NCBI GenBank assembly: GCA_016191645.1
Contig: JACPVQ010000259.1
Location: forward strand, 1-42,474
Length of the DNA stretch: 42,474 nucleotides
Direction of reading: 5' to 3'
Source: Candidatus Solibacter usitatus
GTDB lineage: Bacteria; Acidobacteriota; Terriglobia; Bryobacterales; Bryobacteraceae
The notes under the pieces were generated by a model. That model was given only the letters and a program-made list of their open reading frames with translations. It was not told the origin of the DNA and did no database searches. Of the stretch, positions 2,643 to 22,310 are shown piece after piece. Each line of letters opens with the position of its first letter. Position 1 is the first letter of the stretch. The translations under genes and the position numbers were made by a program.

Positions 2643-5600
2643 TCAAAATTCTGCACGGATGGACATTTGAACGTTCGCCTGCCCCGTACCGTAATTGGAA
2701 AAGTCGCCGACCACGCCGGAGAATCGCGCCCACGCGGCGGGGTTGTTCATGTTGTAAGTCGTATTGGGCGCGGCAAGATTCGGCCGCTTCCACGGCAGAT
2801 TGTGCCCATCTAAACGAAGACTGAGTTTGAGACGCTCATCGATCACCTTCCAACTCTTGGTGACAAAAAACTGCATCCACAAAATCCCCGGCGCTTGCAG
2901 CACTCTGGAGCCGAGCGAACCCGTAGTGTACGCGGCGGGATAGGCAAACGCGTTGAAGTTAAAGATGGGGTTCTGCGCCGCGATCGGAAAACGGTGTCCC
3001 ATTTCCCAGTCCGAAACCTTTGCCTGCTCAATGGTCATCAGCGGATTGACGCGGGAAGCGGTCAGGTATCTATTGGGGCTGCCGGCATGGCCGACGGAGA
3101 GCGGTATGCCGGAGAGCGCGTGTTCACTCACGCTCACTTTCCATCCGCCGAGCACGGCGTTTACCAGACCGCCTTGATTGAGCCAGCGCCCGCCGCGTCC
3201 CACCGGCAATTCATAAATGACGTATGCGCCGAAGGATTTCTGTTGATCCCAGGCGGTACGCGCCTTTCCTTGCCGGTTGTAGTAAGTGAGCGAATCGTCA
3301 TTGCTCAGCGACTTCGAGAAATTGAAACTGGCGTTCAACAGGAGCCCCCTGGCGTAACGCTTCTCGATGGTGATGTTTCCGCTGTGCCATGTGTTGTGAT
3401 TGAAGTTGGAAAGCAGCGAGACGCTGCCGAACTGCGGATAGCGCAGATAATTCTGCTGCGCCTGAAACACCGTATCCTGCAACGCGCGATCTCCGCCCAG
3501 CGCGATGGACAAAGGAATCTGGTTGATGTTCCAACTGCGCTGCAATCCCACGCCGGCGGTACCTTGATAGGTGACGTTGAGCAGCCAAGTGCGGCCGAGC
3601 TGATATTGGAAGCCGGCCGACGAGTTGATCACGTAGGCGTTGTGCAGATTGGGATCGCGCCAAGTGGCGTTCCTGCTGCCGAAGCTGGCTCCCGTATAAG
3701 GAACGGTCCCATCGGGATTCACTGTGTATGGGATGGGGCCGGGTCCGCTTTGCAATTGGAATAAGTAGCGCGGATCACCGGTCGGCTGCAGAATATTGAA
3801 CGCGCCGCTGTACTCATCGAAGCCGCCGGGACCCGAGCTATCCGACGTCATCAGGCCGAACGATGCGCGGAAGACCCACTTCGGACGAAAGCTCCAGGCC
3901 AGTCCCAGGCGCGGCTGAAAATTGTTCAGATCACGTTTGCCGATGGCGCCCTTGGGATGCGTGATTGCGCCCAGGCGTCCGGTCACCGGGTCCACCGCGG
4001 CGGGATCGAACTGCGATTGCTGTTCCCACTTCGTCTTGAAAGGCGATGAGTAGGACCAACGCACGCCGAGATTCAGCGAGATGTTGGGCGTTACTTTCCA
4101 GTCGTCCTGAAAATACAATTCGTGCGTCCATTGCCGCGGCATGAAAATCGCCAGTTGCTTGGTAAACGTTGCGCTGGTGACCACCCCCATTTCAAAAGCG
4201 GCGAAATCGATTCCCGTGTTTGGCGTAAAGGGCAGCGACGTGCCTCCGCCAAAGTTGTACTGGCCGGAAGGCAGCGAAGTGGCCTTGTCGCTGTACAACG
4301 TACGAATCATTTCGTAGCCCATCTTGAGATTGTGTTTTCCGGCGATGCGCGTGAGGTTGTCCTGCAGCACGCGATCCTCACCCACCTGGCGCGTATAGCC
4401 CAATGCGGCGATGCCGTATCCAATATTGAAGTAGGGGAACGTCTCGGGATTGACGCCGGGAATGCTCAGTGCGTCCTTGGCGGCGTCAGGCCGCGCGGGA
4501 TTGGACGCGGCGCGGCGGTTGTAGCCCAGCCGGAATTCATTGAACGTGACGCGCGAAATAATGGAGGTGTAATTGATGACGCCGTTGATGTCGTCGACGG
4601 GATTGATTTCCCGCGACGCGTTGAACTCCGCGCGGGCGAAATTGTCGCCGTTCTGGCCGCGGTGATGGCCCTGCGAATAGCGGAAGTAGATTTTTTGGCT
4701 GGGGGAGAATTGATGGTCGAGCTTCTCGTCCCAGCGATCTCTGTGCAGGCAGCGGCAGGTATTCACGAACAGCAGATTCTGCGAGGGGCCGGTCCTGCTT
4801 GGAGACCCCGGTTGATTGGGTTTGTTCCAAATACCCAAGCCGAGGAATTTTCTGGCGACGGGATCCATCAGACTCTGCGGAACGATATTGCCGGGAAGCG
4901 GATCGCGCGTCCACGTGGCGCCAACCTGTCGCGTTGAAAATGGATTGTAGATGGGAAGCCCGCCGCCGGGAGCATCCTTAAAAGAGAAGTCGCCGGCGAG
5001 CATCTCCGGCGTGGGCACGGTGCCCAGGGAAACGTTGATAGTGTGCTCGTGGTTGATGGCGTAGTCGGACAGCCAGAACGTTTTGTTCCTGCCGTTGTAG
5101 ATTTTGGGAATGACCAGCGGACCGCTGCCGACCAGATCGAAGGTCTGGTAGTACCACGGCGCTTCCTTCGGCAGCGGAATCTGCGTCAGATAGCCGCGAT
5201 GTACCCAACTGCCCGGCAGGTAGCGATCTTCAAACGAAGCATGCAGCGCATTGGTGCCCGACTTGTACACCATCTTCATGGAACCGCCGGAGGAATGCCC
5301 GTACTCCGCGGAGACACCGGTCGTAAGAACTTTGACCTCTTCCATGGCGTCCGTGCTGCCTTGAATCACACCATCCACCTGGTTCACTACGCCGGTGTAT
5401 GGCGACTTTGCGTTGATCCCATCCATGGTTGCGCCGATATCGTTCTGCGCTTGACCCATGATGTGCTGACCGGCTTGGCTTTGAACGGAAACGATGCCGG
5501 GCATATATTGGAGCAGGTAAACCGTGCGCTTCATCACGCCCGGAACCTCTTTCAAAACGTCCGCGGGAAGGACATAAGAACTCAGCACAGTTTCCGTATT

Positions 5601-5981
5601 CAACAAAGAGGCGGAGGCGCTCACGGTGACGCTTTCGGTGACCGCGCCCAACTCCAGCGCGATATCGACGCGCGGCACTTCGGCGGAGCGGAGCGTAAGC
5701 CCTTCGCGAACGAATTCCTTAAAGCCCGCGGCGTTCACTTTCACGCGATAGTCGCCGGGAATCAGATACGGAACGTAATAGCCGCCATCCATTGCCGTGG
5801 TTGTTTCGGTGAGAAAGGATGTCGCGGTGTTGACGACGGTCACCTTGGCGCCGGCGACGACGGATCCCGTAGAATCCCTAACGGTACCGACCAACGTCGC
5901 GCCTCCGCCCGTTTGGGCCATCGCGGCAGCGGCGGCAAGCATCAAAACGGCGACAGCGCGGAGCGGCAAGCTGGTAACCAT
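2643..5981 (-). CDS. TonB-dependent receptor, Oar-like, with carboxypeptidase-regulatory-like domain
   Basis: From the ATG at 5981 the protein has 1112 residues. This start follows AAAGGAA at good spacing; a GTG at 6005 would add eight residues. A signal peptide ends near the first MAQ. It is followed by a CarboxypepD_reg-like/Cna-type domain (about 22-105; GTVRDSTGSVVAGAKVTV, then YYVPYLIPGDYRV), a plug-like region (about 115-240) and a long beta-barrel ending in a C-terminal Phe (IRAEF). Such proteins sit in the outer membrane and import large substrates with energy from TonB, or act as Oar-type surface proteins. The substrate cannot be read from the sequence. It is a paralogue of the receptor encoded at 7071-10433. 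The co-directional mannonate-dehydratase-like gene downstream hints at a sugar-acid or glycan substrate (inference). Confidence 0.88.
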   Translation of the reverse strand: MVTSLPLRAVAVLMLAAAAAMAQTGGGATLVGTVRDSTGSVVAGAKVTVVNTATSFLTETTTAMDGGYYVPYLIPGDYRVKVNAAGFKEFVREGLTLRSAEVPRVDIALELGAVTESVTVSASASLLNTETVLSSYVLPADVLKEVPGVMKRTVYLLQYMPGIVSVQSQAGQHIMGQAQNDIGATMDGINAKSPYTGVVNQVDGVIQGSTDAMEEVKVLTTGVSAEYGHSSGGSMKMVYKSGTNALHASFEDRYLPGSWVHRGYLTQIPLPKEAPWYYQTFDLVGSGPLVIPKIYNGRNKTFWLSDYAINHEHTINVSLGTVPTPEMLAGDFSFKDAPGGGLPIYNPFSTRQVGATWTRDPLPGNIVPQSLMDPVARKFLGLGIWNKPNQPGSPSRTGPSQNLLFVNTCRCLHRDRWDEKLDHQFSPSQKIYFRYSQGHHRGQNGDNFARAEFNASREINPVDDINGVINYTSIISRVTFNEFRLGYNRRAASNPARPDAAKDALSIPGVNPETFPYFNIGYGIAALGYTRQVGEDRVLQDNLTRIAGKHNLKMGYEMIRTLYSDKATSLPSGQYNFGGGTSLPFTPNTGIDFAAFEMGVVTSATFTKQLAIFMPRQWTHELYFQDDWKVTPNISLNLGVRWSYSSPFKTKWEQQSQFDPAAVDPVTGRLGAITHPKGAIGKRDLNNFQPRLGLAWSFRPKWVFRASFGLMTSDSSGPGGFDEYSGAFNILQPTGDPRYLFQLQSGPGPIPYTVNPDGTVPYTGASFGSRNATWRDPNLHNAYVINSSAGFQYQLGRTWLLNVTYQGTAGVGLQRSWNINQIPLSIALGGDRALQDTVFQAQQNYLRYPQFGSVSLLSNFNHNTWHSGNITIEKRYARGLLLNASFNFSKSLSNDDSLTYYNRQGKARTAWDQQKSFGAYVIYELPVGRGGRWLNQGGLVNAVLGGWKVSVSEHALSGIPLSVGHAGSPNRYLTASRVNPLMTIEQAKVSDWEMGHRFPIAAQNPIFNFNAFAYPAAYTTGSLGSRVLQAPGILWMQFFVTKSWKVIDERLKLSLRLDGHNLPWKRPNLAAPNTTYNMNNPAAWARFSGVVGDFSNYGTGQANVQMSIRAEF

Positions 5982-6090
5982 TGTTTCCTTTATTTTGTCC
6001 ACCAATTGCGGTCAAGCATATCACAAGCCGCAATTGTAAGGATGCGTCCGAACCGAACCGATGTGGCATAATCTTACTGGAGTCTTACCA

Positions 6091-7070: not shown

Positions 7071-10000
7071 CTACCACTGCAGACGAAATACGAGTATCGT
7101 GTGCCAGCGCCCCGTTCCGATATCGGAAAAACTCCCGCGCGTACCCGTGAACGTGCCGAAGCTGGACTGGTCGGTCCTGTTGAATGTCGAGTTCGGCGGA
7201 TTGAAGTTGTGATACTTGAAGATGTTGTTCACATCGCCGCGCAGTGTGAAGCGAATGCGCTCAAACATAGTCCAGGTCTTTTGCACGGAAGTCTGCGGCC
7301 AGATCACGCCCGGCGCTTCCAACGTGTTGCGGCCCAGCGCGCCGATGGTGTAGGCAGCCGGATAGGCAAAGCCATTGATGTTGAGGTAACGATTCTGCGC
7401 CGCGAACGGGAAGCGGTTGGGGCCAATATCGACGTGAGCGAGTTTCACTTGATCGTTGGGCAGAATCTGATTGGGACGGTTGCCCACGCCGGGTAGATAG
7501 TTCGACGGGCTGCCGCCTTGTGTCACAGTGAAGGGCGGGCCAGTCTGGAACGTTTGGATCCACACCATCTCCCAGCCTCCCAGCAGAGCATTCTTCACGC
7601 CGCCGCCGTTCAGCCAACTACGCCCCTTGCCAAAGGGCAACTCGTAGGTCAGCGTGGTGACCCAGCGATGATGAATATCGTAACTGGCGCGGGCTTTCTC
7701 CAGCGAGCGGTTGTAGTAAGTGATGCCGGAAGCCGTTCCATCATCGTCCGAGTTGCTGATGGTTTTTGACCACGTGTAGAAAGAGTTCAACGTCATGCCG
7801 CGGGAGTAACGCTTTTCGAAACGCAACGTCGCCGCATGGTAGGTGTTATGTCCGAAGTTGCTCACCAGGTTCACGTTGCCGAACTGCGTGTAGGGCTTGA
7901 AATTCTGGAACTGCTGGCGCATCTGTTCCGTGCGCGCGGGATCGCCGGGATAAGGGAATGCGCTGATGGGAAGCACGTTGATGTTCCAGGTATTCATCAG
8001 TTTCACGCCCGCCGATCCCTGATACATCGCCTCCATCAACCATGTCTTGGTGAACTGCCATTGCACTCCGCCCGACCAGTTCATGACGTACGGCGTGCGC
8101 ATGTTGGGGTCATACCAGGTGGCGTTGCGGCTGGCGTAGTTTGTGCCCACATAAGGAACGCTGCCATCGGCGTTGGTCGTGAAGGCCACCGCCGGCGGGC
8201 CTTGCGAAAGCTTGAACGCCGTGCGCGGATCGCCGGTGGGCGATTGAATGTTCGCGCTGGCCAGATATTCTTCGAAGTTCTGGTTCAGGTCGTTGGTCAT
8301 CAGATCGATGCTGATCAAAGTGAAGCTGGAACGGAAAACGAAATTCGGACGGAAGTTCCACGCCAAACCGAGACGCGGTTGGAAATTGTTGAGGTCCTTA
8401 CGCGCCAGTTGGCCCGTTTTGTGCGTAATCGCCCCGGGCAGTTTGGTGATGGGATCGATCGCCGTGGGGTCGAATTGTGATTGCTGTCCATACTTTGTTG
8501 AGAATGGCGATTCGTACGACCAGCGCAATCCGATATTCAGCGTCAGATTCTTCATCGGACGGAAATCGTCCTGAAGATACAACGCCTGTCCCCACCAGCG
8601 GGGAAGCCACGTTGCTTGATTGCGCGTGAACTGAGCGCTGGCAACATTTCCAAGCAGAAAACTGGCGAAGGTGTTGCCGGTGTTCGGCGTGAACGGCAAC
8701 TCCGTCCCGCCCATGTTGTAGATGCCGGAGGGAAGTGCTTCGGCCAGAGCGTTGTAGCGCGTGCGCACCATCTCATAGCCGAACTTGAGCGTGTGCCGCG
8801 AAACCACTTTGGTCAGGTTTTCCTGAAGCGTGTTGTCTTCGGAGATGTTCTGAAACCTTCCGCCGGGGCCGCCGTTGTAACCCGTGACGAAGCGCGGAAA
8901 CGTCGTCGCGCCGGCGTTCGGCATTCCCAATTGCGCGGCGAATCCCTGGCCGTAGCTAATGGGGTCTTTGGTCTCATGCCGACGGTTATAGCCAAGGCGG
9001 AATTCGCTGATCAACGTCGGCGAAAAGGTGTAAGTGTCGGAGAAAACAATGTTGGTGAAATCGTTCGGCTGCACCATCACCGGATCATAGACATCCCAGG
9101 CGATGTCAGTGGAATAGCGCCCCGGAGCGCGATTGCGCATGCGCGATAAGCGCCCAAACACGCGGTGATTGGTGCTGAACTGATGATCCACCTTGTTGTC
9201 GTAGCGCGTGAAAAAGTAGCGGCCCTTGGTGGGAAGCACCAAATCCTGCGTGACCCCGGTGGGCGTGATCACGCCCGGACGATTGGCCTGAGTCCACGGA
9301 TTGAAGGAGAGGAACTTCTTCACCACGGGATCGATTTGCGAAACGGGAAGACGATTGCCCGCGAATGGATCGCGCAGCCAGCGGCCGGTCGAATCCTGCC
9401 GCGTCGTCGAAGGATCGTAGATGGGGAATCCGCGTCCGCCGAAACTGAAGTCCCCGCCGTACATCTCCGGCGTCGGCACGTTGGTGATGGCCGTCTCGGA
9501 GACCTTTTCGTGATGACGTTGGAAGCCGAAAAACCAGAACGTCTTGTTCTTCCCGTTGTAGATCTTCGGAATGTAGACCGGACCTCCGAGCGTGGCGGAC
9601 ATCTCGTGATAGCCCCACGGATTGCAGGGCAGCCCCACGTCGCAGCGTTTCAGCTGATCGAAGTATTGCCGGTGCACCAGCGCGCCGTTAAGATATCGAT
9701 CTTCCGCCGATCCGTGGAAGCTGTTGGTGCCGCTCTTGTACACGGCGGAGAGGATGCCCGCGCCGGAGTGACCGAATTCCGCAGGCAGGCCCGTGGTCAT
9801 CATCTTGAATTCCTGAATCATGTCGAGCGTGCCGGTCATGATGCGCTGGTCGTCATTCACCGCGCCGCGCACGGGCTCTTTGCCGCTCATTCCGTCCAGC
9901 GTGACGCCCAGAGCGCGTTCGCGCTGGCCGTCGGCGTGGAGACCATTGATGACGTTGACCCCCGGCATGTAAAGCGTCATTCGCTTCACGCCCTTTTGCA

Positions 10001-10433
10001 TCACAGGAAGTTTGATGACCGTGGAGCCCTCCATGATTTGGCCCGCCGCCGCCGTTTCCGTTTCCAGAAGCGGAGCGGTTCCTTCGACGCTAATCGTGTC
10101 CGACACCGCGCCCACTTCCATGCGCACATCAATACGCGGTGTTTCGTTAGTGCGCAAGCTGATGCCGTCGCGGACGTGCTTCTTGAATCCGGCCGCCTCC
10201 AGCGTCAGGCGGTACGGGCCGGGACTCAGGTACGGGACATAGTATGAACCTTCGGAATTGGTGACGCTCTCGGCGACAAACGACGTCGCCGTATTGACCA
10301 CGGCAACCTTCGCGCCGGCAATCACCGCGCCGGTGGAATCAGTAACGGTGCCGACGAGCGTGGCCGACCCGGTGGTCTGCGAAAACGCGAAGGGAAGGAA
10401 AGAGAGCAATGCCGTTACGACGCGGATCAACAT
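7071..10433 (-). CDS. TonB-dependent receptor, Oar-like, second paralogue
   Basis: The protein has 1120 residues starting at MLIRVVTALLSFLPFAFSQ, a clear signal peptide. Its ATG is preceded by AGGAGA at seven bases. The order is the same as in the receptor at 2643-5981: a carboxypeptidase-regulatory-like domain (about 20-105; GTVTDSTGAVIAGAKV), a plug region (about 120-245) and a long outer-membrane beta-barrel with many aromatic strands, ending LVFRLQW. The two proteins align across their whole length by eye but are clearly diverged, so this is an old duplication or two members of a large family, as is usual in Solibacter-type genomes. Its substrate is unknown. It is the last gene of a minus-strand run behind the CHRD and GMC genes, but has its own likely promoter. 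Confidence 0.88.
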   Translation of the reverse strand: MLIRVVTALLSFLPFAFSQTTGSATLVGTVTDSTGAVIAGAKVAVVNTATSFVAESVTNSEGSYYVPYLSPGPYRLTLEAAGFKKHVRDGISLRTNETPRIDVRMEVGAVSDTISVEGTAPLLETETAAAGQIMEGSTVIKLPVMQKGVKRMTLYMPGVNVINGLHADGQRERALGVTLDGMSGKEPVRGAVNDDQRIMTGTLDMIQEFKMMTTGLPAEFGHSGAGILSAVYKSGTNSFHGSAEDRYLNGALVHRQYFDQLKRCDVGLPCNPWGYHEMSATLGGPVYIPKIYNGKNKTFWFFGFQRHHEKVSETAITNVPTPEMYGGDFSFGGRGFPIYDPSTTRQDSTGRWLRDPFAGNRLPVSQIDPVVKKFLSFNPWTQANRPGVITPTGVTQDLVLPTKGRYFFTRYDNKVDHQFSTNHRVFGRLSRMRNRAPGRYSTDIAWDVYDPVMVQPNDFTNIVFSDTYTFSPTLISEFRLGYNRRHETKDPISYGQGFAAQLGMPNAGATTFPRFVTGYNGGPGGRFQNISEDNTLQENLTKVVSRHTLKFGYEMVRTRYNALAEALPSGIYNMGGTELPFTPNTGNTFASFLLGNVASAQFTRNQATWLPRWWGQALYLQDDFRPMKNLTLNIGLRWSYESPFSTKYGQQSQFDPTAIDPITKLPGAITHKTGQLARKDLNNFQPRLGLAWNFRPNFVFRSSFTLISIDLMTNDLNQNFEEYLASANIQSPTGDPRTAFKLSQGPPAVAFTTNADGSVPYVGTNYASRNATWYDPNMRTPYVMNWSGGVQWQFTKTWLMEAMYQGSAGVKLMNTWNINVLPISAFPYPGDPARTEQMRQQFQNFKPYTQFGNVNLVSNFGHNTYHAATLRFEKRYSRGMTLNSFYTWSKTISNSDDDGTASGITYYNRSLEKARASYDIHHRWVTTLTYELPFGKGRSWLNGGGVKNALLGGWEMVWIQTFQTGPPFTVTQGGSPSNYLPGVGNRPNQILPNDQVKLAHVDIGPNRFPFAAQNRYLNINGFAYPAAYTIGALGRNTLEAPGVIWPQTSVQKTWTMFERIRFTLRGDVNNIFKYHNFNPPNSTFNRTDQSSFGTFTGTRGSFSDIGTGRWHTILVFRLQW

Positions 10434-15820: not shown

Positions 15821-15940
15821 GTGGGGCAGATCTCCAGATCTGCGAGGCGGTCTCCAGACCGCCTCTGCCGGCAATGATCGACATCCCCGAAGAAGGCGGG
15901 ATCTGAAGATCCCGCCGCAGGTCTGGAGACCTGCCCCACC
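15821..15940. repeat. Four-hairpin palindromic intergenic element, copy 1
   Basis: Four hairpins follow one another. Each has a two-base loop inside a TCT-NN-AGA core: 15826-15841 (loop CC), 15844-15865 (arms GAGGCGGTCT/AGACCGCCTC, loop CC), 15895-15916 (arms GGCGGGATCT/AGATCCCGCC, loop GA) and 15917-15934 (arms GCAGGTCT/AGACCTGC, loop GG). The outer ends, from GTGGGGCAG to CTGCCCCAC, are also complementary over about 23 bases with two mismatches. The element thus has a two-forward, two-reverse layout like a BIME/REP cluster. It lies between the PQQ-propeller stop and the M16 operon start. There is no T-tract, so it is not an ordinary terminator. Confidence 0.85.
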
Positions 15941-16086
15941 AACCAAATGGAAATCTTCGCGGCTTGTGGAGATTTCAGAGAGTAGTAGTAAATTGGTTTT
16001 CATCACGATTCGTCTGTCTCTATGGGCCGTGCACACCAAGAAGATTCCAGAGGCAGCCGATAGTAAATCGCAACTACAATAGAAAT

Positions 16087-17580: not shown

Positions 17581-19670
17581 GAATCCTGATTGCGACTTTT
17601 CTCATCGCCCTTTGCGCGGCAGCACAGACTCCCAGGCCCGCCGCGCGCACCGTCTCTCCGAAGGATTTGAAGTATCCGCCGCTGCGCCCCATCCGCACAC
17701 CGGACATTACGACGTTTACGCTGGACAATGGAATGAAGGTTCACCTTCTGCAGAACCACGAGATCCCGCTGGTGCGTGGTTCGGCGCGCGTTCGTACCGG
17801 GAACGTTCATGAGCCGTCCGGCAAGGCCGGGCTCACGGATATCTTCGAGCAAGCGCTGCGCACCGGCGGCACGAAGTCGCGAACCGGCGATCAGATCAAT
17901 GAAGCGTTGGAAAACGTCGCCGCCTCGGTGGAAGCGAACATGAGCGATACGGCCGGCACTGTGTCGTTTAACACCTTGAAGGAGAACACGGATCTGGTTC
18001 TCGATATCTTCAAAGACATTCTCTCCTCCCCCGAGTTCCGTCAGGACAAGATCGAAGTAGCGAAGACGCGAGCGCGGGGCGGCATCGCCCGCCGCAATGA
18101 TCAGCCGGCGGGAATCGCGTCGCGCGAGTTCAATCGTCTACTCTATGGCCGCAACACGCCGTGGGGGCGTGAAATGGAGTACGAAACCGTGGAGAAGGTT
18201 ACGCGGGAAGATTTGCTGGAGTTCCACAAGCGCTACTTCTTCCCGGCGAACATCGTTCTCGCCGTCAATGGCGATTTCGAGACGGCGGCAATGCGCGCGC
18301 AATTGGAGAAGCTGTTCGCGGGCTGGAACGCGAAGCAGGGCCCCGTGCCGCCTTTCCCGGCGGTGACGAATGTTCCCAAACCCGGCCTCTACTTCGCCGA
18401 GAAAAAAGATGTCAATCAGACCAACTTCCGCATCGGCCATCTGGGCGGACTGCTCAATGATACGAACTATCCGGCAATTGAAGTGATGAACGATATCCTG
18501 GGCGGATCGGCATTCAGCAGCAGGTTGGTGCAGACTGTGCGCAGCGATCTGGGGCTGGCCTACAACGTCGGATCGGCGTGGAATGCGGGCTTCACGAATA
18601 TCGGAACCTTCACCATCTACGGCGGGACGAAGTCGGAATCGACGCTGCAAGCGATACAGGCGATCCGCAAGGAGATCGACCGCATTCGCACCACCGAAAT
18701 TTCCGACGAGGAGTTGAAGATCGCCAAGGAAAGCATCTTGAACGGCTTTGTCTTCAACTTCGATTCGCCCGCGAAATTTCTTTCGCGCCTCGTGCTCTAT
18801 GAGTACTACGGCTATCCGAAGAATTTTATCGACACCTACCAGAAGGCGATTGGCGCGGTCACGAAAGCGGACGTACTTCGTGTGGCGAAGGACTATTTGA
18901 AGCCCGAGAACTTCGTCATGGTGTTAGTGGGAAACCCGGCCGAGATGGGCACACAGCTTGCTTCGCTCAACATGCCCGTGAATAAGCTCGATATTACGAT
19001 TCCGGAGCCAAAACGCGAAGGCGTGAAATCGGACGCCGCATCGCTGGCGCGCGGCAAAGCGATGTTGCAGGCGTTCCAGAAAGCCATTGGCGGCGCGGAC
19101 AAACTGGCCGCGATCAAAGATTATTCGCACGTCGCCGCGCTCTCACTACCGCCCGCGACGCAGACCACCAAAGCGATTCCACCGCAGATTCGTTTTGAAC
19201 AATCGGGCGGATTTGGAAGCATCGTTGTTTACTATGACGGTAAGGGCGGCGGATTCCTCAAAGCGCCGCAAGGCGAAATGCCGCTGCAGGCGCAGCCCGT
19301 GGCGATGCGCCAGGCAAAAGACGAAGTGTTCCGCATGCACCCCACGCTTTGGCTGAGCGATCGCGATCCCGATCGTACAGTGAACGCCACCGGACCACGC
19401 TCCGTGGAGATCGGCGATAAGGATGGGAATCGTATCACCCTGCACTTCGATGAGAAGACTGGCCTTCTGGAACAATCCACTTATAGCAGCCCGGGCATGA
19501 ACGCGCCCGTGGAACTGGAAGCGGCTTACAGCGATTGGAAGGAAGTGAGCGGCATCAAAATGCCGCACAAAGCGAAAATCTCTTCGGGCGGTAAACAGAT
19601 GACCGAGATCACCGTCAAAGAGTATAAGTTGAACAGCGGGCTGACGCCGGAGGAGTTGTCGAAGAAATGA
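17577..19670 (+). CDS. M16-family peptidase-like protein (zinc motif lost) with C-terminal LolA-like domain
   Basis: The protein has 697 residues with a signal peptide (MRILIATFLIALCAAAQ). The M16 fold covers about 40-480. The HxxEH site reads D88-I-F-E91-Q92, so both zinc-binding histidines are gone, as in the non-catalytic partner of bacterial M16 heterodimers. Residues about 491-697 are an added beta-rich domain like the LolA/outer-membrane lipoprotein-sorting fold (AIGGADKLAAIKDYSH, later GLLEQSTYS and VSGIKMPHKAKIS). Its start overlaps the stop of the active M16 gene (ATGA), and its own stop overlaps the next gene in the same way, so the three products are probably made in fixed ratio and may form a complex. 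The LolA assignment is by pattern and less certain than the M16 call. Confidence 0.87.
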   Translation: MRILIATFLIALCAAAQTPRPAARTVSPKDLKYPPLRPIRTPDITTFTLDNGMKVHLLQNHEIPLVRGSARVRTGNVHEPSGKAGLTDIFEQALRTGGTKSRTGDQINEALENVAASVEANMSDTAGTVSFNTLKENTDLVLDIFKDILSSPEFRQDKIEVAKTRARGGIARRNDQPAGIASREFNRLLYGRNTPWGREMEYETVEKVTREDLLEFHKRYFFPANIVLAVNGDFETAAMRAQLEKLFAGWNAKQGPVPPFPAVTNVPKPGLYFAEKKDVNQTNFRIGHLGGLLNDTNYPAIEVMNDILGGSAFSSRLVQTVRSDLGLAYNVGSAWNAGFTNIGTFTIYGGTKSESTLQAIQAIRKEIDRIRTTEISDEELKIAKESILNGFVFNFDSPAKFLSRLVLYEYYGYPKNFIDTYQKAIGAVTKADVLRVAKDYLKPENFVMVLVGNPAEMGTQLASLNMPVNKLDITIPEPKREGVKSDAASLARGKAMLQAFQKAIGGADKLAAIKDYSHVAALSLPPATQTTKAIPPQIRFEQSGGFGSIVVYYDGKGGGFLKAPQGEMPLQAQPVAMRQAKDEVFRMHPTLWLSDRDPDRTVNATGPRSVEIGDKDGNRITLHFDEKTGLLEQSTYSSPGMNAPVELEAAYSDWKEVSGIKMPHKAKISSGGKQMTEITVKEYKLNSGLTPEELSKK

Positions 19671-20467
19671 TTACGCGCCGATGTTGGATGCTGACCGCGG
19701 CAGGGCTCCCTCTGGCGGCGGAGATTAGCGCGGCACGCGGAAAGAAGATTGTCGAAGAGTCCATCGCCGCGCTCGGTGGGAAGGCTTTTGTGAACATGCG
19801 CGACCGCACCGAAACCGGGCGCGTCTATTCCTTCTATAGCGACCGGCTCTCCGGGCTCTCACGCGCCAAGATCTACACGCGCTATCTCACCAAGCCGAGT
19901 CCCATGCGCGCCGATTTCTTCGGATTGCGCGAGCGGCAATCGTTCGGCAAAGACAAGGAAGATTCGGCGGTCCTATTCACGGAGGTGGACGGATGGTCCA
20001 TCTCGTTTCGCGGCGCGCGGCCTATCGGCAAGGAGTTGGAAGACCGTTTCCGGGACTCGACGCGCCGAAACATTTTCTACCTTTTGCGTGTCCGGCTGGA
20101 CGAGCCCGGAATGTTGATTGAGCACCTGGGCGACGACACGGCGGACAATCTTCCCGTGCACGTGGTTCATTTCACGGACGCTGAGAACCGCGTGGTGAAG
20201 GCTTTTTTCCACATCTCCACAAAACTGCCCGTGCGCCAGGAATATGTCCGCCGCGATGATAAGACGCGCGACCGCATCGACGAAGTGTCGCGCTTCGCCA
20301 AGTTTCGCGACGTCAACGGCGTGCAGTGGCCGTTTCAAATTCAGCGCGAGCGCAATGGCGGCAAGTACTACGAGATCTTCGCCGAGAGCGTGCAGATCAA
20401 CAGCGACCTGAAAGACGACTTGTTCACCCTGCCTGGAAACCTGAAGGTGCTGCCCCCAGCCCGCTGA
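19667..20467 (+). CDS. Exported LolA-like protein of unknown function
   Basis: The protein has 266 residues. The N-terminus has a Tat-like leader (TRRCWMLTAAG and on to about residue 22). The mature part begins GKKIVEESIAALGGKAF, which resembles the start of the LolA-like domain at the end of the preceding M16 protein (QKAIGGADKLAAIKD). It continues as alternating beta-strands with FRDVNGVQWPFQIQRERNGG near the end, the place where the neighbour has KEVSGIKMPHKAKIS. I therefore read it as a stand-alone relative of that domain, perhaps binding lipids or lipoproteins in the periplasm (inference). It is the last gene of the M16 operon, with an ATGA overlap. The four-hairpin element, copy 2, starts 12 bases after its stop. 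Confidence 0.72.
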   Translation: MITRRCWMLTAAGLPLAAEISAARGKKIVEESIAALGGKAFVNMRDRTETGRVYSFYSDRLSGLSRAKIYTRYLTKPSPMRADFFGLRERQSFGKDKEDSAVLFTEVDGWSISFRGARPIGKELEDRFRDSTRRNIFYLLRVRLDEPGMLIEHLGDDTADNLPVHVVHFTDAENRVVKAFFHISTKLPVRQEYVRRDDKTRDRIDEVSRFAKFRDVNGVQWPFQIQRERNGGKYYEIFAESVQINSDLKDDLFTLPGNLKVLPPAR

Positions 20468-20479
20468 GTTTTTCCGGCG

Positions 20480-20563
20480 GTAGGGCAAGCTTCAGCTTGC
20501 GCGAGGCTTCAGCCTCGCCACCGAGCAGGGCTGAAGCCCTTTGCAAGCTGAAGCTTGCCCTAC
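20480..20563. repeat. Four-hairpin palindromic intergenic element, copy 2
   Basis: The outer ends are a perfect 21-base inverted repeat (20480-20500 against 20543-20563). Inside, four hairpins follow with GCT-NN-AGC cores: 20484-20500 (GCAAGCT-TC-AGCTTGC), 20501-20518 (GCGAGGCT-TC-AGCCTCGC), 20527-20540 (AGGGCT-GA-AGCCCT) and 20543-20558 (GCAAGCT-GA-AGCTTGC). The two-forward, two-reverse order is that of copy 1, but the stem words differ. It fills the gap between the LolA-like gene and the CocE-type hydrolase, ending 22 bases before the ATG of the latter. Confidence 0.87.
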
Positions 20564-20585
20564 TGCGGGGCGTATAGTTGTGTAT

Positions 20586-22310
20586 ATGTTTCGCCTGCTG
20601 GTGCTTTCTTTTTTCCCGCTGTTTCTGCCGGCGCAGGAGTTCACGCAGCGCGATGCCTCCGTTCCCATGCGTGACGGCGTCAAACTCGCATCCACGGTTT
20701 TTTTGCCTTCCCGCCCCGGACCTTATGCGACGCTGCTGGTACGCACTCCCTACAACCGCGGCGGCGTCTCTCGTCTCGCCACCTATTTGGCGGGGCGCGG
20801 CTATGCCGTGATGACCCAGGATTGCCGCGGACGTTTTCAATCGGAAGGATCCTTTTACGCGTTCGTCAACGAAGGCGAGGACGGCTACGACACCATCGAA
20901 TGGATTGCGAAACAACCCTGGTCGAACGGAAAAGTGGGAACATTCGGCGGATCTTATCTGGCGTGGGATCAGTTGTACACAGCGGCCTTCCAGCCGCCGC
21001 ACTTAAGTGCGATGTTCCTCATTGTCGGCGGATCGAACTTTTATCAGGACTACGCATTTCCAGGCGGTGCTCCGAATCTCGGCTGGTCGATGTGGCTGGC
21101 GCAATCCGCATTAACCAGTAAACAGGCTGCTTCTGATGCGAGCAGGCCTAATCCGCAGACTTGGATGCAGCTTCCGCCCCGTCAACGCGGCGTCTTCTTC
21201 GATTCCTTTTCCGATCACCGACGCATGTTCGCTGATTATTTCGCGCACCCCAACTTCGATGCCTATTGGAAGCAGTTGGGCTTCTTCACGGAAGACAGTT
21301 ACAAAAAGGTGAAGGACGTTCCCGCGCTTTTTCTCAGCGGCTGGTACGACTATTTTCTCGAAGGCACGTTGAAGAACTATCTGGGGTTGAAGGCAACACA
21401 AAAGAGCGAGAAGAAGCTCATCGTCGGTCCGTGGCCGCATGGAACGGGGCGTGCGGAATGTGGGGATGCGGCCTTTGGGCCGAGCGCCGCATACAACGAT
21501 GGCGAATGGATTGCCGATTGGTTCGATCACGTATGGAATGCCTCGCCATTCCGAGTGCTGCCCTCCGATGCGGTGTCGCTGTTCCGCATGGGCGGCGGTG
21601 GCGGCGGCAGATCGTCGACAAACAAATGGCAGAACGGCGGCGAATGGGTAGGGCACACCGCGTGGCCTCCGGTGCAAAGCAAGTCCGCTCGATATTTCTT
21701 CAGTGCCGGCGCGACGCTCCACACGGCCGCGCCGAAGATCGGCGGCAGCGTGTCGTATGTCTACGATCCGGCCAATCCCGTTCCTACCGTTGGTGGACGC
21801 TACACCGTCGGCGCCGCGCCGCCCTGCGCGCAGGATCAGCGTCCGCTCGACAATCGCGCCGATGTCTTGCGTTTTTCCACCGCCGCGCTCGATCAGCCTT
21901 TAGATATCGCAGGTAAGGTTCGAGTTCGCATGTTCGTGTCCACCAATGCGCCGGACACCGACTTCACCGCGAAGTTGATCGACGTCTATCCCGACGGCTA
22001 TGCCATGATTCTCGCCGACCATCAATTGCGCTTGCGATTCCGCGAAAGTTTTGAACGTCCGAAACTGTTTCGCCGCGGCGATGTGGAAGCCATCGAATTC
22101 GATCTCGGCTCGTTGAGCAACCGCTTCGCAAAGGGACATCGCATTCGATTGGATGTATCCAGCAGCAACTTCCCGAAATTCGAACCGAACGCCAACACGG
22201 GAGAAGATCCCACATCAACCGGGCCCGGCGTGAAGGCCACGAATCGCGTGTTCTGGGGCGCGGCGCAATCTTCCTATCTCGAATTGCCGGTGCTCACTTC
22301 GAAGCAATGA
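20586..22310 (+). CDS. CocE/NonD-family (S15, Xaa-Pro dipeptidyl-peptidase-like) hydrolase
   Basis: The protein has 574 residues from the ATG at 20586, which gives the signal peptide MFRLLVLSFFPLFLPAQ; longer frames would start inside the hairpin element. The alpha/beta-hydrolase domain has the family opening VPMRDGVKLAS, nucleophile S123 in TFGGSYLAWDQ, the acid D255 in GWYDYF and the base H285 in GPWPHG. From about residue 400 the jelly-roll domain of the S15/CocE group follows (RADVLRFSTAALDQPLDIAGKV and on to YLELPVL). These enzymes cut Xaa-Pro dipeptides or hydrolyse acyl esters and amides such as beta-lactam side chains. The true substrate is unknown. An exported peptidase next to the M16 operon suggests extracytoplasmic peptide use. 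It converges on and overlaps the CehA gene by 17 bases. Confidence 0.88.
   Translation: MFRLLVLSFFPLFLPAQEFTQRDASVPMRDGVKLASTVFLPSRPGPYATLLVRTPYNRGGVSRLATYLAGRGYAVMTQDCRGRFQSEGSFYAFVNEGEDGYDTIEWIAKQPWSNGKVGTFGGSYLAWDQLYTAAFQPPHLSAMFLIVGGSNFYQDYAFPGGAPNLGWSMWLAQSALTSKQAASDASRPNPQTWMQLPPRQRGVFFDSFSDHRRMFADYFAHPNFDAYWKQLGFFTEDSYKKVKDVPALFLSGWYDYFLEGTLKNYLGLKATQKSEKKLIVGPWPHGTGRAECGDAAFGPSAAYNDGEWIADWFDHVWNASPFRVLPSDAVSLFRMGGGGGGRSSTNKWQNGGEWVGHTAWPPVQSKSARYFFSAGATLHTAAPKIGGSVSYVYDPANPVPTVGGRYTVGAAPPCAQDQRPLDNRADVLRFSTAALDQPLDIAGKVRVRMFVSTNAPDTDFTAKLIDVYPDGYAMILADHQLRLRFRESFERPKLFRRGDVEAIEFDLGSLSNRFAKGHRIRLDVSSSNFPKFEPNANTGEDPTSTGPGVKATNRVFWGAAQSSYLELPVLTSKQ

Follow-up and report, generated by a model that had tools for sequence, protein, structure and literature searches.

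The 84-bp palindromic element found in the window, i.e. the whole 42,474-nucleotide stretch of Candidatus Solibacter usitatus DNA analysed here, is very probably a paired inverted REP (a BIME/REPIN-like miniature element) of the GTRG family, and its mobilizer is most likely RAYT-2, a Y1/HUH single-stranded DNA transposase encoded elsewhere in the genome on contig C167. The genome assembly comprises 4.47 Mb in 267 contigs and is 79% complete, and the contig of the window is referred to as C171. The element was probably once mobile. REP, BIME, RAYT, and REPtron are already known; as far as the literature seen goes, the two-hairpin arm as the mark of a clade and the layout in which a RAYT gene lies inside an element with polar, gene-less derivatives (29 paired copies) are new. 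An odd pair of hairpin clusters is thereby turned into a testable REP/RAYT system in Acidobacteriota.

Each arm of the window element (copy 2) consists of a GTAG foot and two tandem hairpins (Table 1). A sequence-only reading had described a perfect 21-nt inverted repeat enclosing four hairpins. The segment at 20480–20500 (GTAGGGCAAGCTTCAGCTTGC) is indeed the exact reverse complement of 20543–20563, and the four hairpins exist with the cores that had been read (GCT-TC-AGC twice, followed by GCT-GA-AGC twice), but the repeat does not enclose them all, since H1 and H4 sit inside its arms. The distance given for the start codon of the downstream CocE-type gene (ATG at 20586) was also correct. The foot of copy 2 lies 1 nt from H1, within the 0–2 nt that separate a GTRG foot from a short perfect hairpin in REPs, and two inverted REPs form one unit in the window element as well as in the genome copies, as in BIMEs and REPINs. 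H2 is identical in the family-2 element beside RAYT-2, and the H2–H3 spacer is longer in the related copies on C90 and C167 than in the window. Folded as single-stranded DNA, copy 2 reached −39.7 kcal/mol (z −9.85; 0 of 200 shuffles equally stable or better), and its lowest-energy fold is one long hairpin, not four, which counts against a reading based on local hairpins. No match was obtained in the window with the Rfam covariance models at the gathering score or with a tRNA scan.

Table 1. Features of the two elements and of the genes adjoining copy 2 (positions in the window).
Feature	Position	Strand	Remarks
Copy 1	15821..15939		Family-1 element with CTCCAG core and GTGG feet; shorter than the common 151–155 bp form
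Third gene of the M16 operon	19667..20467	+	No Pfam match; the element begins 12 nt after its stop codon
Copy 2, whole family-2 element	20480..20563		84 bp; inverted pair of two-hairpin REPs
Left GTAG foot	20480..20483	+	Candidate guide tetranucleotide, by analogy with parts of PMC8266576
Hairpin H1	20485..20500	+	GCAAGC-TTCA-GCTTGC, GCAAGCTTCAGCTTGC
Hairpin H2	20501..20518	+	GCGAGGC-TTCA-GCCTCGC, GCGAGGCTTCAGCCTCGC; left-end type
Spacer between H2 and H3	20519..20526		Short
Hairpin H3	20527..20540	+	AGGGC-TGAA-GCCCT, AGGGCTGAAGCCCT; apparently decayed right-end type
Hairpin H4	20543..20558	+	GCAAGC-TGAA-GCTTGC, GCAAGCTGAAGCTTGC
Right CTAC	20560..20563	-	GTAG foot on the minus strand
Peptidase_S15/PepX_C (CocE-type) gene	20586..22310	+	ATG 22 nt past the element

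Copies 1 and 2 share the arrangement GTRGGGCA-stem-CTYCAG, and their end-to-end alignment fails. The half-site pattern GTRGGGCN{1,6}CTYCAG has 382 matches in the genome, as opposed to 3 for the reversed pattern, and the repeats are, as expected of REPs, numerous and, judging from the paired copies placed, mostly extragenic. Among 100 half-site places listed, CTCCAG was present in 93 and CTTCAG in 7, and two families can be distinguished by their sequences, namely family 1 (CTCCAG; copy 1 and most of the 382 half-sites) and family 2 (CTTCAG; copy 2). The copy-2 word, with one mismatch allowed, occurs 15 times (12 exact matches and 3 with one mismatch), compared with 0 control matches; taken by itself, family 2 is therefore a low-copy family. 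The failure of the end-to-end alignment could be read as a sign of two unrelated palindromes that are alike by accident, but the excess of both patterns over their controls, the words common to both copies, and the similar arms beside the RAYT genes make such a coincidence extremely improbable. At least 15 of the 100 listed half-sites lie <200 bp from a contig end, where 2.4 would be expected; the repeats break the assembly, and the copy numbers are thus probably underestimates.

The paired copies in the fetched loci comprised 31 distinct sequences, from which two spanning neighbouring elements were dropped (n = 29). Fifteen of the 29 are 151–155 bp long and, as judged by eye, contain two further inner hairpins. 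In family 2, complete units are present on C90, C145, C167, and C171 (the window), half copies on C23, C147, and C244, a collapsed copy on C8, and head-to-head pairs on C43 and C143, while the match on C38 lacks a hairpin. The C90, C145, and C171 units have GAAGCCCTTTGCAAG in common at a position where C167 retains a full hairpin stem, and this change in the C90/C145/C171 sub-type would be derived. Judged by eye, the flanks of the C171 unit differ from the others, which suggests that the whole unit has spread on at least one occasion; the flanks common to C90 and C145 may reflect a single event together with a duplication.

The local hairpins are the structure retained among the copies. The first hairpin is fully paired in 104 of the 117 distinct half-sites read, with nine Watson–Crick stem types, one stem being common to 61 of the 117. 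For the outer hairpins of the 29 paired copies, local pairing was better in 13, long-range pairing in none, and the two tied in 16. The type of inner hairpin could be determined at both ends in 20 of these copies, and all 20 combine a left type with a right type; in the other 9, the type was readable at one end only. Hairpin order in the other copies is therefore not random. The proposal that the architecture is conserved rather than the bases holds for the layout (two forward and two reverse hairpins), which is kept while the stem words differ, but not for the bases as a whole, given the shared GTRGGGCA-stem-CTYCAG.

A search of the genome with PF01797 yielded two genes, both with intact frames and both carrying a Y1_Tnp domain (Pfam E-values of 6e-10 and 2e-9) with no other domain found. 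RAYT-1 (192 aa, contig C62) lies inside a family-1 element: the left arm and then TGCCGGAAGTGA are on its left side, and the inner hairpins and the right arm are on its right side, in the same order as in the gene-less 151–155 bp copies. For RAYT-2 (182 aa, contig C167), a complete family-2 element is located 80 bp upstream of the start codon, and a collapsed half-arm starts at the stop codon. A gene between two inverted REPs, the arrangement expected of RAYTs, is thus found on both sides for RAYT-1 and as a complete upstream element plus a downstream remnant for RAYT-2, so the tie of RAYT-2 to family 2 rests on one side. Among solved structures, E. coli TnpArep (4er8) gives the best match to RAYT-2 (E 9e-5). 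Both proteins have NHVH, WQ, and NPV[RK]AG motifs and the conserved tyrosine of the Y1/HUH domain. An NP(L/V)(R/K)xG motif and a conserved N-terminal threonine are given as marks of RAYTs in parts of PMC2817692; the counterparts here are NPVRAG and NPVKAG, together with T21, which is invariant in 12 aligned rows. The two RAYT genes link each family to a probable mobilizer, and the positions of RAYT-1 inside a family-1 element and RAYT-2 beside a family-2 element make the dispersed copies look like gene-less derivatives. A broken third RAYT homologue was observed at L216 (C66:14472-14800), with a family-1-like arm nearby.

In the mechanism proposed here, the four hairpins would fold locally when the strand is single (e.g. 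on the lagging strand), the RAYT would read the hairpins together with the GTRG foot and cut at a dinucleotide that the foot specifies, and it would then move or copy the unit. By analogy, we infer that the RAYT performs the cleavage step and that the local hairpins are its substrate; RAYT-2 would be the enzyme acting on the window copy. E. coli TnpAREP recognizes single-stranded REPs and cuts at CT, according to parts of PMC8266576. The GTAG foot of family 2 and the GTGG foot of family 1 may, again by analogy, set different cut sites; under the guide model of that paper, GTAG would direct cutting to CT and GTGG to CC or CA. As described in parts of the same paper, dependence on the GTAG foot varies between systems: replacing GTAG with GTGG permitted cutting at CC in the Mb system, and similar attempts failed in two others.

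A doubtful but not negligible alternative is that the element is a REP/BIME relic that owes its spread to recombination or slippage, the RAYTs having been domesticated and no longer moving it. The small and partly decayed state of family 2 (half, collapsed, and head-to-head copies) and the common flanks of the C90 and C145 copies, as from duplication, are consistent with this alternative, and parts of the literature call TnpAREP a domesticated transposase (parts of PMC8266576) and say that REPtrons do not move as a unit (parts of PMC6006769). However, both RAYT frames are intact, family 1 is numerous with one stem common to about half of the half-sites read, and the left/right polarity of the copies is that of a transposon. 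These data favour the RAYT-mobilized REP pair, and the system would be active, now or recently.

The stop codon at 20467 and the ATG at 20586 are separated by 118 nt, and the element takes up 84 of these. A terminator, attenuator, or mRNA-stabilizing stem specific to the M16/CocE junction and kept for regulation would also account for a palindrome at this position, and a strong stem is indeed predicted when the element is folded as RNA together with its flanks (−80.8 kcal/mol, z −9.1). Furthermore, the copies favour 3′ positions. With a simple purpose-made gene caller, 27 of the 29 paired copies could be placed relative to called genes, the other 2 being too near a contig end; 19 are intergenic, 7 overlap a called ORF, in 6 cases close to one of its ends, and 1 has no right-hand gene. 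The 19 intergenic copies lie between convergent (11), tandem (8), and divergent (0) genes, compared with 5, 21, and 4 gene pairs, respectively, in the window itself (Fisher, convergent excess of the copies, p 0.005). On the other hand, no terminator-like or promoter-like (sigma-70) match was found at 20350–20700, the element is not a hairpin followed by a T-run as in Rho-independent terminators, the pattern recurs throughout the genome, and where the arms differ, the copies keep the local hairpins and not the long stem. The orthologue of the gene 5′ of the element was found in loci of 19 relatives; no REP-like arm was present within 300 bp 3′ of it in 18 of them, and the one REP-like match has a different sequence. 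Regulation specific to this junction is thus an unlikely explanation. As RNA, copy 2 is predicted to form a strong stem, and a secondary RNA effect of the element is possible as a side effect of the REP pair.

The same data do not support the suggestion that the bracketing of the M16 operon by the two copies is meaningful. With 382 half-sites in the genome and 18 of 19 relatives without a REP-like arm, the bracketing is best read as two incidental insertions in a repeat-rich genome, and the insertion in the window has probably been tolerated and not favoured by selection. The M16 gene and the third gene are both retained in ten same-genus loci, and a CocE gene was downstream in 0 of the 19 orthologous loci, the downstream DNA being short in a few. 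No empty site was obtained at the base level from the same-genus relatives, which are 69–75% identical in the upstream gene.

The association between RAYTs and their flanks was analysed in 61 genomes (our own plus 60 relatives), in which matches at E-values up to 1e-3 were obtained in 31 genomes for RAYT-2 and 30 for RAYT-1. For 34 RAYT homologues, including our own two, the median inverted match between the upstream flank and the downstream flank of the same gene was 22, compared with 9 for mismatched pairs, and 15 of the 34 beat 99% of the mismatched flank pairs; against this, the one top-ranking match was a RAYT's own downstream arm in only 14 of the 34. Enrichment for the CTYCAG pattern was seen in seven of the 61 genomes, every one of which belongs to the group of 20 whose RAYT match reaches E <= 1e-27 (Fisher p 1.8e-4). 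Both thresholds (for enrichment, at least 15 matches and double the control; for the RAYT match, the E-value limit) were chosen after the tables had been seen, and the pattern catches CTYCAG words only. Against a strict RAYT–REP pairing, one relative (G004) has an enriched word, GTGGGGCAGACTTCAG, that could not be spotted by eye in the DNA flanking its three RAYT homologues (L158, L210, and L215). A scan of named genomes gave at least 80 loci, of which 79 were scored (L289 lacks an upstream flank), and the best matches among the loci listed belong to Terriglobia/Bryobacterales, which places the genome of the window in this group.

Two-hairpin arms are concentrated in one branch of these homologues. 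When one rule was applied throughout, a GTRG arm was found in 36 of 54 acidobacterial rows and in 36 of 58 rows from other phyla, and the arm has two hairpins in 22 and 4 of these, respectively (Fisher p 1.7e-5); in the acidobacterial set, two of the named rows are duplicates of rows from relatives, and the two L211 genes were counted once. In base-shuffled flanks, any arm occurred in 57 of 4460 and a two-hairpin arm in 1 of 4460. The tree (109 rows, quick search, four short rows dropped) was labelled with two slightly different rules, one for the named rows and one for the rows from relatives, which gave 25 acidobacterial and 7 other two-hairpin rows instead of the 22 and 4 of the single rule. 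It contains a 35-row clade (SH-aLRT 96) with an arm in 26 rows, 21 of which have two-hairpin arms and 5 one hairpin only, the last counting against a strict mark; in the 15 neighbouring acidobacterial rows, an arm is present in 8, none with two hairpins. Among six clade rows scored as having none, L228, L231, and L233 do carry inverted two-hairpin arms that the rule missed owing to an imperfect first hairpin or to GGAG in place of GTAG; the two-hairpin arms of L234 face the other way, L219 has a 19-nt match only, and L217 lacks an inverted pair. Double-hairpin ends therefore look like the mark of one acidobacterial RAYT branch, and no description of two-hairpin REPs in this group was recognized among the open-licence papers listed.

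More tentatively, and with somewhat less than even confidence, we suggest that an acidobacterial RAYT clade shifted from one to two tandem hairpins per end and kept transposon behaviour, with the RAYT gene between distinct left and right ends, and that gene loss gave rise to a high-copy, multi-hairpin miniature element (382 half-sites). If true, the RAYT system would move as a transposon instead of being purely domesticated, and its mode of end recognition would be new. A clade in which the flanks went from a single hairpin at each end to two would help in studying how RAYTs recognize their ends and whether RAYT units are still able to transpose.

The system most closely resembles GTAG-superfamily REPs, BIMEs, and REPINs with their RAYTs, as described in parts of PMC2817692 and PMC3733652, sharing with them the GTRG foot, the hairpin, the inverted pairs, the many copies, the RAYT bracketed by the same repeats, compensated stem changes, and the coexistence within a genome of several families, each with a RAYT of its own. 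It differs from them in having two tandem hairpins per arm and in the common family-1 unit, whose left and right ends remain distinct and which also keeps its inner hairpins, as a transposon lacking its gene would. IS200/IS605 elements and their miniature derivatives likewise have a Y1/HUH transposase, subterminal hairpins at both ends, and left/right asymmetry (parts of PMC6006769), whereas the RAYT-type NPV[RK]AG motif, the GTRG foot, and two hairpins per end are found here. In Pseudomonas, double inverted repeats composed of a degenerate GTAG-1 unit and other stem-loops are also compound palindromes of high copy number beside Y1 genes, but the fused stem-loop there is unrelated, whereas both hairpins here have the CTYCAG core in both families (parts of PMC3733652).

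Surveys have described acidobacterial Y1 genes flanked by TIRs (parts of PMC3733652) or by CnGA-foot structures (parts of PMC6006769), and both types were considered. The TIRYT of Acidobacteria share the phylum and a Y1 transposase between inverted repeats (parts of PMC3733652), whereas the flanking repeats here are GTRG hairpin REPs and Y1_Tnp is the only domain found; the TIRs of TIRYT are unrelated to GTAG REPs, and the GTRG arms that accompany both RAYT genes do not fit this type. In Solibacter usitatus, class 3 TnpAY1 is associated with atypical repeats in ~600 copies; it is similar in being an acidobacterial Y1 gene with many dispersed secondary structures, but it has a CnGA foot and a Y----Q motif (parts of PMC6006769), in contrast to the GTRG feet and the NP after the tyrosine found here.

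Several further repeats and genes were observed. A 66-bp unit, often in tandem, has at least 59 matches in the genome (40 of 133 candidates scored), e.g. at C150:4904-5162, C51:18133-18330, and C147:42086-42349. In the fetched loci, its 3′ end abuts the GTRGGGC head of elements in 27 of 40 unit-like matches, 5 of the remainder run into the next unit, and 8 are other cases, some of them chance matches. Where the unit flanks an element on both sides, a larger inverted repeat results, and the unit may be a target or part of the mobile unit. The word AGAGTAGTAGTAAATT at 15975–15994 in the window, beside copy 1, looks like a remnant of this unit, and a near-identical word adjoins the RAYT-1 element. 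At L023 (1417–1517), a 101-bp family-1 element was called inside a 2.1-kb reading frame, representing either a real in-gene insertion or a miscalled frame. Two minus-strand ORFs located close together in the window (2643–6005 and 7071–10433) have the same length (1120 aa) and are possibly paralogues.
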